This document shows, piece after piece, positions 15,988-28,910 of a stretch of DNA of 53,688 nt. Under the pieces are notes generated by a model, which saw only the letters and a program-made list of their open reading frames with translations, was not told where the DNA came from and made no database searches. A program made the position numbers and the translations under genes. The stretch covers positions 162,855-216,542 of the forward strand of contig NZ_VJXQ01000006.1 in NCBI RefSeq assembly GCF_007655485.1, written 5' to 3'. Position 1 is the stretch's first letter. Each line of letters starts with the position of its first letter. The DNA is from Halobellus captivus. GTDB taxonomy: Archaea; Halobacteriota; Halobacteria; Halobacteriales; Haloferacaceae.

Positions 15988-16024
15988 GCTGCGGTCTGTC
16001 GACCCCGCGGGTCACCCGACCGAC

Positions 16025-16034
16025 GGTTTATATC
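16025..16034 (+). promoter_or_regulatory. Promoter of structured RNA B
   Basis: GGTTTATATC is identical to the box at 27113-27122. The conserved block GTGAC begins exactly 30 nt after the first T of TTTATATC in both places. A shared GCCAGCA lies between box and predicted start (16045-16051 here). Confidence 0.7.
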
Positions 16035-16056
16035 CGAAGACGCTGCCAGCACCCCC

Positions 16057-16169
16057 GTGACGTAACCACTACCTCGCATCGGGCCGCGGTTGCCTGGCAC
16101 GTCGATGCGGGGGACAATCGGCGACTTCTGGGGTATGTCGCCGACGCGGGTGCCAGCTGTTCGCCATTC
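16057..16169 (+). ncRNA. Structured RNA B, paralog of the RNA at 27145
   Basis: The mutS-ubaA spacer holds no gene. The predicted RNA starts GTGAC at 16057. P1 pairs CCTCGCATCG (16072-16081) with CGATGCGGGG (16103-16112), with one G-U pair. Its loop holds GCGGTTGC (16086-16093) and CTGGCAC (16094-16100). P2 pairs TCGGCGAC (16118-16125) with GTCGCCGA (16137-16144). The loop segment CTGGCAC is exactly complementary to GTGCCAG at 16150-16156, giving a 7-bp pseudoknot, followed by CTGTTCGCC and ATTC. The same order, spacing and pairings occur at 27145-27263 with compensatory changes. I do not recognise the family; function is unknown. Confidence 0.75.
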
Positions 16170-26744: not shown

Positions 26745-27026
26745 TCAGTCGACGATAACTTCGACCGGTCCGTCGTCGCCCTCGTCGGCTTCCGGTTCGT
26801 TGCTGCCGCGGGATTTCTGCTCCTGCCAGAGGAGGCCGCCGACCACGAGCAGCGCGACCCACGAGCGCCAGTTCGCGAGGTTGAGCGTGTAGCCGATCCC
26901 GAAGGGCTTCTTCACGAGCATACTCTGTCCGGGCTTCCAGTACGAAGAGAGCATTCGACCGATCGACGGCCGTTCGAAGTTGTACGGAATCCCGAGAATC
27001 TCGCCCTGCTTCGGTTTGTCTACCAT
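26745..27026 (-). CDS. DUF5808 membrane-associated small protein
   Basis: A 93-residue haloarchaeal protein. Its core GIPYNFERPSIGRMLSSYWKPG is a hallmark of DUF5808, and one hydrophobic segment (about residues 52-68, WVALLVVGGLLW) follows. The C terminus is acidic. Function is unknown. TATA-like CATAAATCG (27049-27057, minus ATTTATG) is 23-31 nt before the ATG. Structured RNA C begins divergently about 120 nt away. Confidence 0.8.
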   Translation of the reverse strand: MVDKPKQGEILGIPYNFERPSIGRMLSSYWKPGQSMLVKKPFGIGYTLNLANWRSWVALLVVGGLLWQEQKSRGSNEPEADEGDDGPVEVIVD

Positions 27027-27112
27027 ACGTTACCGTACGCCGGGCTGTCATAAATCGTTTTGGCATCGACCGACGGCGACGCTGCCCCGTGAATACGAAC
27101 GAGTGACACGGA

Positions 27113-27122
27113 GGTTTATATC
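27113..27122 (+). promoter_or_regulatory. Promoter of structured RNA C
   Basis: GGTTTATATC matches the box at 16025-16034 exactly, followed by GCCAGCA (27133-27139) and then GTGAC 30 nt after the first T. There is no similarity upstream of the box, so the shared unit starts at the promoter. Confidence 0.7.
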
Positions 27123-27144
27123 GAATCGAGCGGCCAGCAGGGGT

Positions 27145-27263
27145 GTGACCTGAGTGGCGCCCCGCGTCGTCTGCGGTTGCTCGGTACAGCGACGTGGGTT
27201 CAAAAGCCGACGATGGCGTCGGAAACGTCGCCGCAAGCGAGTACCGACTGTTCGCCCCCATTC
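27145..27263 (+). ncRNA. Structured RNA C, paralog of the RNA at 16057
   Basis: The predicted RNA starts GTGAC at 27145. P1 pairs CCCGCGTCG (27161-27169) with CGACGTGGG (27190-27198). Its loop contains GCGGTTGC (27173-27180) and TCGGTAC (27181-27187). TCGGTAC is the exact complement of GTACCGA at 27241-27247, forming a 7-bp pseudoknot. Relative to RNA B, three of the seven pseudoknot pairs and one P1 pair change on both sides and still pair. CTGTTCGCC (27248-27256) is identical to RNA B. The P2 region is less clear: CCGACG-ATGG-CGTCGG (27207-27222) competes with GGCGTC/GTCGCC (27215-27232, one mismatch). It lies head-on to the 3' end of kae1. Confidence 0.75.
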
Positions 27264-27278
27264 GCCTCCTACGGTGAG

Positions 27279-28910
27279 CTACTGCGTCGCCGACTGATAC
27301 CGGCCGCGACCTTCGACCTCGCGGAGTCGCGTCCGGACCTCCTCGTCACCGACCGCGGCGTACCCCTCTTCGACGGCCGCAAGCAACGGCGCTGGCTCTG
27401 CGGCGGTCCCGGCGACGCTCTGCTTGAACACGTGGATGTCCATCGCGTGATCTTCGACGTGCCCGGTGTGATACCCCAGGCCGAAGTCGATGAGGTACGT
27501 CCGCTCGTCGTCGACGCGGACGTTCCGCGTGGTGGGATCGCCGTGGACGAACCCCGCCTCGTGAATGGCGGCGAGGTGCCGACCGACCGCTCGACACCGA
27601 TCCGCCGTCAGCGCCGCGGCGAGGTCGTCGTCGCCGACGCGCTGGAAGACGAGCGTTCCCTCCGCGGGGTCGACGTCGTAGACGACCGGCGTGGGGACGC
27701 CGACGCGTCGGGCGGCGCTCGTGAGCCGCGCCTCCGCACGCGTGCGGTCGGCGCGAAGCCGGTCGTCGAGCGCCGCGTGCCGGTACGTTTTCGGCACGCG
27801 ACGTTTGATCACGCGGTCCGCTCCGATCGACACTGTCGCCTCCGCACCACGGATCTCCCCGGAGGCCGTCGGATCCCTGACGACCGATTCGTCCGCGCCG
27901 CGCCAGCTCACCGCCACCTGATCCGGGCGGAAGTTCGGATCGATCGACGAGTCGGCGACGTCGATCGTGTCCCCGGCGGCGTACATCTTCGCACCGAGCA
28001 CGGCGATCATCCCGGCGTTGTCGCGGAGGAACCGCGGTTCGGGCGCGTAAAACGCCGCCCCGCGCTGCTCACACATCGATTCGAGCATCGCTCTGAGTCG
28101 CGCGTTCTGGCCCACGCCGCCGCCGAGGACGAGCTCGTCCGTCCCCGTCAGCGACAGCGCCCGCTCTGCGACCTCGGTCAGCATCGCGAAGATCGTCTCC
28201 TGAAGCCCGGCGCAGACGTCTTCGACGGGGACGCCGTCGTCGACGGCGTCCTTCGCGGCCGACATAATCCCCGAGAAGGAGAAGTCCATCCCCTTGACGA
28301 CGTACGGGAGATCGTGGTACGCTCCCTCCCTTGCCCGTCGCTCGACCTTCGGTCCGCCGGGGTGCGACCAGCCGAGATGACGCGTGAACTTGTCGATCGC
28401 GTTCCCGACGCCGGTGTCCATCGTCTCGCCGAGGATCCGATAGCGGCCGTTGTGGTACCCCAGCAGGTGCGCGTTCGCGCCCGAGGCGTTCAGACAGACC
28501 GGGGAATCGAAGCCCGATCGGTGGCGGCCGATTTCGAGGTGTGCGACCATATGGTTGACGCCGACGAGCGGCACCGAGAGCGTCTGCGATAGCGACCGCG
28601 CCGCGGTGCCGACGATACGGAGACACGGTCCGAGCCCGGGTCCCCTGGAGAAGGCGATGGCGTCGATATCGAGATCGTTGCCGTCTTCGAGCGCGCCGTC
28701 GACGTCGTCAGCGGTCGCCGCCGCGTGATCGAGAATCGTCGAGACCACCTCCGGAACGGCCACGCCCATATGCTCGGCCGCCTCGCGCGGGTGGATGCCG
28801 CCGCTCTCCGGTTCATATGGGTCGGACTCGATGACGACCTCGTCGGTCTCGGTGTCGTAGAGCGCGGCGCTGGCCGCCCAGGCGGTCCCTTCGATTCCGA
28901 CGATTCGCAT
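27279..28910 (-). CDS. Kae1-Bud32 fusion, KEOPS tRNA t6A synthase and kinase
   Basis: A 543-residue fusion of both KEOPS enzymes. Residues 1-335 are Kae1 (TsaD/ASKHA fold), which transfers threonylcarbamoyl to A37 of tRNA; the metal site HMVAH and LCLNASGANAHLLG-type loops are present. Residues ~340-543 form the Bud32 atypical kinase, with the catalytic HGDPTTRN and DFGLG. Fusion is usual in Halobacteria. The gene is the last in a minus-strand run of information-processing genes after rps24e (33-nt gap). RNA C transcribes toward its 3' end. Confidence 0.95.
   Translation of the reverse strand: MRIVGIEGTAWAASAALYDTETDEVVIESDPYEPESGGIHPREAAEHMGVAVPEVVSTILDHAAATADDVDGALEDGNDLDIDAIAFSRGPGLGPCLRIVGTAARSLSQTLSVPLVGVNHMVAHLEIGRHRSGFDSPVCLNASGANAHLLGYHNGRYRILGETMDTGVGNAIDKFTRHLGWSHPGGPKVERRAREGAYHDLPYVVKGMDFSFSGIMSAAKDAVDDGVPVEDVCAGLQETIFAMLTEVAERALSLTGTDELVLGGGVGQNARLRAMLESMCEQRGAAFYAPEPRFLRDNAGMIAVLGAKMYAAGDTIDVADSSIDPNFRPDQVAVSWRGADESVVRDPTASGEIRGAEATVSIGADRVIKRRVPKTYRHAALDDRLRADRTRAEARLTSAARRVGVPTPVVYDVDPAEGTLVFQRVGDDDLAAALTADRCRAVGRHLAAIHEAGFVHGDPTTRNVRVDDERTYLIDFGLGYHTGHVEDHAMDIHVFKQSVAGTAAEPAPLLAAVEEGYAAVGDEEVRTRLREVEGRGRYQSATQ

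Follow-up and report, generated by a model that had tools for sequence, protein, structure and literature searches.

A multicopy haloarchaeal RNA gene family with a covarying pseudoknot and a two-codon start-stop frame, possibly part of a pilus/DNA-exchange programme

Two related RNA genes in the window

The window, i.e., the whole stretch of 53,688 nucleotides of Halobellus captivus that was analysed, contains two intergenic copies of the same RNA gene family, called RNA B and RNA C (Table 1). RNA C is flanked by a small protein gene on one side and by the 3' end of a Kae1/Bud32-like gene on the other, both genes being on the opposite strand. RNA B is located between mutS and a MoeB/ThiF-like gene, with the same arrangement of genes as at RNA C. 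A search of the whole window for the family gave only these two copies, and no «Structured RNA A» of the family was identified.

The first-pass annotation, made from sequence alone, had compared the two copies and claimed selection on a shared fold with a pseudoknot. Its observations hold on direct reading: (i) the pseudoknot arms (CTGGCAC/GTGCCAG in RNA B, TCGGTAC/GTACCGA in RNA C) are exact; (ii) of the seven pairs, exactly three have changed on both sides and still pair; (iii) one P1 pair is A-U in RNA B and G-C in RNA C; (iv) the blocks said to be identical, GCGGTTGC and CTGTTCGCC, are present in both RNAs; (v) the distance from the TATA box to GTG is 30 nt in both. P1 of RNA C also carries one G.U pair. 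The paired pattern is well above chance in the window (0 of 100 shuffles). The changes had been announced as proof of the fold; two sequences by themselves are only suggestive, and the proof comes from the homologs. Neither a function, nor the mini-ORF, nor the GCGGCCA promoter element, nor the multicopy nature and size of the family had been reported.

Table 1. Coordinates, in the window, of RNA C with its flanking genes and of RNA B.
Feature	Position	Strand	Sequence, basis or remark
Small protein gene	26745-27026	-	Flanks RNA C
RNA C, whole	27109-27257	+	
RNA C, basal promoter	27109-27121	+	BRE-like CG 27109-27110; TATA box TTTATAT 27115-27121; promoter-pattern match at 27115
RNA C, GCGGCCA element	27130-27136	+	Between TATA and start; part of CGA-N4-GNRRCCA
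RNA C, predicted transcription start	27145	+	Prediction; no expression data
RNA C, mini-ORF	27145-27153	+	GTG ACC TGA; 30 nt past first T of TATA box
RNA C, spacer	27154-27160	+	From stop to P1; sequence free, length fixed (6-7 nt)
RNA C, P1 5' strand	27161-27169	+	CCCGCGTCG; covariation
RNA C, conserved loop L1	27173-27180	+	GCGGTTGC; family alignments
RNA C, pseudoknot 5' arm	27181-27187	+	TCGGTAC; direct reading and covariation
RNA C, P1 3' strand	27190-27198	+	CGACGTGGG; covariation
RNA C, L3	27199-27240	+	Optional variable hairpin; no conserved sequence
RNA C, pseudoknot 3' arm	27241-27247	+	GTACCGA; pairs with 27181-27187
RNA C, conserved 3' tail	27248-27257	+	CTGTTCGCC 27248-27256, then A or C; conservation ends here
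Kae1/Bud32-like gene	27279-28910	-	3' end next to RNA C
RNA B, whole	16021-16166	+	
RNA B, promoter	16021-16056	+	BRE; TATA 16027-16033; GCTGCCA
RNA B, mini-ORF	16057-16065	+	GTG ACG TAA
RNA B, P1	16072-16112	+	16072-16081 with 16103-16112
RNA B, loop	16086-16093	+	GCGGTTGC
RNA B, pseudoknot 5' arm	16094-16100	+	CTGGCAC; pairs with GTGCCAG 16150-16156
RNA B, pseudoknot 3' arm and tail	16150-16166	+	GTGCCAG 16150-16156; CTGTTCGCC 16157-16165

Covariation of the fold and constraint on the 5' end

The pattern of the two shared blocks retrieved nine clear copies in the own genome. In their alignment the pairing has four double-changed pairs and 98.6% of paired cells, and slid controls fall to 22-50%. 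The alignment of 57 copies was built with a covariance model that did not contain the pseudoknot; 8 of 16 pairs have double changes (22 double-changed cells, 99.1% of cells paired). Over about 15 genera, 8 of the 9 pairs of P1 are double-changed, with 76 such cells and 98.4% of pairing. None of 500 shuffles is as high, and shifting the partners by 1-3 columns leaves 24-54% paired.

A test of the pseudoknot that selects the arms by their pairing is biased and was not relied on. The arms were located solely by means of the conserved loop and the CTGNNNGC tail, without using pairing: all 7 bp are formed in 126 of 137 copies. When the commonest arm is excluded, 55 of 63 copies remain fully complementary, with 28 distinct arms (shuffle mean 11.6, maximum 20). 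The counts of covariation are not fully corrected for relatedness. Nevertheless, P1 sequences wholly unlike one another (CTCCGGACCG, CCACGCGGTG and CCGGCGGCG) keep their pairing, which is hard to explain if the fold is not under selection. The covariation of P1 and of the pseudoknot is decisive for a conserved RNA fold; there are no probing data. The claim of the first-pass annotation is thus supported, since more homologs show covariation, i.e., the opposite of the outcome it had named as refuting.

The typical geometry is that of an H-type pseudoknot with P1 of 9 bp and S2 of 7 bp. L3 ranges from 6 to 130 nt among copies and its hairpin is optional. The tail is CTGTTCGCC in 70 of 120 copies and mostly CTGNNNGC in the others; the base after it is A or C in 111 of 120. 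Other genera retain just CTGNNNGCC. A pairing between the L1 loop and the 3' tail, feasible on paper in some copies, was dropped in the absence of covariation by eye.

The 5' end is also constrained. In all nine first copies, RTG-NNN-stop lies at a distance of exactly 30 nt from the first T of the TATA box, the place at which transcription should begin in haloarchaea. In 64 copies unselected for the frame, the start codon is GTG (61) or ATG (3) and the third codon is TGA (41), TAG (12), TAA (10) or TGG (1), i.e., a stop in 63 of 64. The last two bases of this codon are not independent, TGG being avoided (Fisher p=2.1e-6; p=5.7e-4 without ATC-TGA, the largest linked subgroup). These p-values are merely indicative because paralogues are related. 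Codon 2 is unconstrained, many different residues being encoded, and the frame is conserved across genera. The stop is a feature of the RNA and not of the promoter, since protein genes having the same promoter start at this position without a stop. The frame is missing in a few copies (L070, with TGG; L123, L139 and L167; L183 and L188 begin with ATT), and in about 8 copies the start spacing deviates by one to a few nt. It must be noticed that the 5' end of L175 and L176 reads ACG ATG TGA, i.e., either a near-cognate start or AUG directly followed by a stop.

In 107 of 120 copies, a spacer of 6 or 7 nt separates the stop from P1, and the sequence of the spacer is near random (0.1-0.3 bits at +10 to +14). 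Since its length is fixed and its sequence free, it is suggested that something measures this distance. By established geometry, a ribosome whose P site holds the start codon would extend about to the base of P1. That the transcript is leaderless is inferred from the 30-nt TATA-to-start spacing only, without 5'-end or ribosome data; leaderless transcripts account for 72% of the transcription start sites of protein genes in H. volcanii (PMC4983044). It is likely that the mini-ORF is read by ribosomes, an inference also made in the absence of ribosome data.

Distribution of the family and its promoter

The nine copies served as the basis of the covariance model R1. In the own genome it detects 38 copies at E<1e-4; in each of eleven other Halobellus genomes it detects 15-57. 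R2 (57 copies) has matches in 17 of the 28 genera of the taxonomic family. R3, built from 54 copies and covering the promoter through the P1 3' strand, has matches in 320 of 392 Halobacteriales genomes (79 of 95 genera), and its search of genomes outside Halobacteriales gave no match. Some genera have only weak single matches (E near 1e-4), possibly due to chance. With less truncated scoring and a promoter-inclusive model, the copies number 2-45 in 36 of 37 genomes, the own genome having 45.

No copies are detectable in three genomes listed in the same genus (G060, G302, G303), whose GC content is about 46.5%, the GC-rich Halobellus genomes having 15-57. A composition-neutral promoter pattern likewise gave nothing convincing in these three genomes, and the absence of the RNA there is likely, though not proven, to be real.

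The genes are roughly 80-150 nt long. No convincing copy is found inside a called gene, the gene caller having been verified on the window. The flanking genes have every orientation, and the next downstream gene is convergent in 62 of 94 loci, often only 10-40 nt away. Any given Pfam or PADLOC family is found in at most three of 74 flanking proteins of the own genome, and no common theme emerges; an anti-phage defence RNA was rejected for want of a recurrent PADLOC family. Of the 27 copies examined in other Halobellus, 17 have at least one neighbouring gene in common with a copy of the own genome, and at least 12 have both sides in common; locus L107 is shared with other genera. Because the loci are stable and the downstream genes convergent or mixed, the RNA is not a leader, and it is not an element that moved recently. 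It is very likely a family of standalone RNA genes.

Rfam 15 gives only a tRNA in the window, and none of its families reaches its gathering threshold at the RNA B and RNA C loci (relaxing the search to E<=10 brought up only noise at the locus). For 20 loci from many genera it gives only an unrelated RNase P. In one genome, a family copy (L205) adjoins the archaeal RNase P RNA gene (1642-2036). No description of the family was found in the open-access literature searched, and a closed-access paper or preprint could still hold one; in Halobellus limi, the one named public record checked, the family is unannotated. The class is likely to be new, as no class that could be named or tested combines its features. 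It is an order-wide RNA gene family that Rfam lacks, although many well-sequenced haloarchaea each carry tens of its members.

The −22 to −9 region of the promoter is conserved as strongly as the RNA itself. In the BRE/TATA profile of the family, C-36 is found in 62 of 64 copies and G-35 in 58 of 64, and TTTAT is near-invariant; the BRE consensus of haloarchaea is CGAAA (PMC4983044). Between TATA and start lies the element CGA-N4-GNRRCCA (−22 to −9), with G-15 in 63, C-10 in 64 and A-9 in 63 of 64 copies. This element is not the CsmR motif TATCA(N4)TGATA (PMC13286277).

A search for TATA + CGA-N4-GNRRCCA + RTG, with one mismatch allowed, shows that the same promoter precedes leaderless protein genes of several families besides the RNA copies; the reversed pattern has no match in six genomes. 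The genes concerned (loci L290-L306 and L235-L257, in the own and other Halobacteriales genomes) encode: (i) a T2SSE/TadA-like secretion ATPase, plus neighbours; (ii) a pilin-like DUF7382 protein, divergent from a HerA-like ATPase; (iii) an archaeal type IV pilin, a secreted PLD-family protein and MinD/ParA-like ATPases; (iv) a NucS-like zinc-ribbon protein, a Cas4-like protein and DUF7857. The corresponding Pfam families are T2SSE, Pilin_N, PLDc_2, DUF87/HerA, Cas_Cas4, NucS_N, CbiA/ParA, DUF7382 and DUF7857, some assignments being weak (Cas4, E=2.5e-5; HerA, E=2.5e-8). Sharing by chance is disfavoured, as the same kinds of gene turn up in genomes that are not related (G000, G256, G282, G024, G049, G084, G254, G052). 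The promoter is thus shared between the RNAs and pilin, secretion-ATPase, HerA-like and nuclease-like genes, and it is likely that all of them form one regulon.

The RNA copies of the own genome are far more numerous than the protein promoters with the same motif. In G052 (L235, L240) the promoter is found on protein genes without any RNA match; the regulon therefore does not need the RNA. In G007 and G024 (L237, L245, L242), this promoter is found on protein genes and RNA copies are absent or almost so. These three genomes point to a dependence of the RNA on the regulon, and not the reverse.

Interpretation and rival explanations

The promoter of its own, the mini-ORF frame, the 6-7 nt spacer, the H-type pseudoknot with its conserved loop, and the CTGNNNGCC tail are shown. 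The overall reading towards which the evidence leans, by a modest margin and with function untested, is that of a multicopy family of haloarchaeal trans-acting RNAs, docked on the ribosome within a pilus/DNA-exchange programme. The proposed steps are: (i) a ribosome would initiate on the terminal GTG or ATG of the leaderless transcript, add one amino acid and stop; (ii) the pseudoknot, beginning about 16 nt from the start codon and near the expected front edge of the ribosome, would hold it there with the fold intact; (iii) the ribosome-docked structured RNA would act through its conserved loop and tail, probably with a protein partner; (iv) it would do so once the pilus/DNA-exchange programme becomes active, and its effect would most likely be to damp or retune translation. 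After its one codon the ribosome may either leave the RNA or wait on it. That docking is the function of the RNA is possible but less likely than not, and only a little ahead of the base-pairing sRNA rival below, there being no expression, ribosome or probing data. A bolder reading, in which the two-codon leaderless ORF parks a ribosome at the pseudoknot and the RNAs are the noncoding arm of a pilus/DNA-exchange regulon, is distinctly more apt to fail than to hold; if true, entry into the regulon state would be coupled to translation through ribosome-docked RNAs.

Ribosomes are found on some sRNAs of H. volcanii without evidence of coding (PMC12482152), i.e., noncoding RNAs on ribosomes as proposed here; the sequences were not compared. 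A start/codon/stop module at the predicted transcription start ties leaderless translation to a structured RNA and offers a natural, testable system for the behaviour of ribosomes on a minimal ORF.

Several known systems share part of these features. Readthrough and frameshift signals, such as the murine leukaemia virus gag-pol type, combine a stop or a slippery site with a short spacer and an H-type pseudoknot; a stop with a spacer of about 6-8 nt ahead of such a pseudoknot is the shared feature. The present family, with its 6-7 nt spacer, fits the geometry of these signals (stop, spacer of 5-9 nt, H-type pseudoknot), but its frame has two codons at a predicted leaderless 5' end, and the RNA is standalone with tens of copies. 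No conserved open frame was found past the stop (the in-frame distance to the next stop goes from 0 codons upward and L3 is unconstrained). Eukaryotic start-stop uORFs (PMC5972666) are likewise minimal ORFs thought to work via the ribosome and not via a peptide, whereas the present RNAs are upstream of no ORF, are archaeal and have a covarying pseudoknot. The bar minigenes of phage lambda have a two-codon ORF alike and yield a short peptidyl-tRNA that drops off; they differ from the present family, which has a free codon 2 and is structured, multicopy and archaeal. A mimic of the 23S rRNA A-loop/PTC was also considered, CTGTTCGCC being A-loop-like and the core PTC-strand-like in the same order; it was dropped because local alignment scores with the own 23S are not above those of shuffles and other genera keep only CTGNNNGCC.

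Among the rival explanations, base-pairing sRNAs remain possible: the pseudoknot would be a scaffold, the variable hairpin or the 6-nt spacer would contact mRNAs, and the start-stop would shed unfolding ribosomes. In favour of this, L3/P2 and the spacer differ in every copy, dozens of paralogues would suit many targets, and trans sRNAs are known in haloarchaea (PMC6560208). However, L3 goes down to 6-8 nt without a hairpin, which leaves scant room for a seed, and the start codon is actively retained although a non-RTG 5' end would suffice to avoid ribosomes.

Titration of ribosomes or tRNA is unlikely. The two-codon ORF would yield peptidyl-tRNA drop-off and slow translation, the pseudoknot merely stabilising the RNA. 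The frame is indeed preserved over genera, and early drop-off of peptidyl-tRNA is common in bacteria (PMC10192219). Codon 2 is nevertheless free, and therefore no particular tRNA is targeted; moreover, the conservation of the loop and tail is left unexplained.

Three other explanations are very unlikely. A cis-regulatory leader, attenuator or riboswitch for the downstream gene, already disfavoured, would suit the third or so of copies having a same-strand downstream gene, but this is not the rule (convergent next gene in most loci, often at <40 nt) and the flanking genes have no theme. A non-autonomous mobile element (MITE) or a transposon-encoded guide RNA (TnpB omegaRNA) would suit the many dispersed copies and the sharp 3' boundary, but genomic positions are conserved within and between genera, the copies are highly diverged outside the functional sites, no transposase or TnpB is among the commonest Pfam families of the 74 flanking proteins, and two core patterns have no match in viral contigs. 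DNA-level decoy operators for the transcription factor of the regulon, with an incidental RNA structure, would agree with the excess of RNA copies over protein promoters, but the covarying P1 and pseudoknot, the stop-codon constraint and the conserved loop and tail require an RNA product.

Coming back to the preferred reading, i.e., ribosome-docked RNAs within a pilus/DNA-exchange programme, the inference that the regulon serves DNA exchange is slightly more likely to prove wrong than right. The Ups/Ced DNA exchange of Sulfolobales (PMC11868833) combines pilins and pilus machinery with HerA-like DNA-pumping ATPases, as does the haloarchaeal protein regulon; the likeness is limited to the proteins, no such RNA being found in the relevant parts of that paper. 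The regulon is a concrete and testable candidate for the movement of DNA between haloarchaeal cells, which is an open question. At L257, a RecA-like gene comes after a MinD-like gene with this promoter, in an order resembling that of minD2-HVO_0596 in Haloferax volcanii (PMC11588486).
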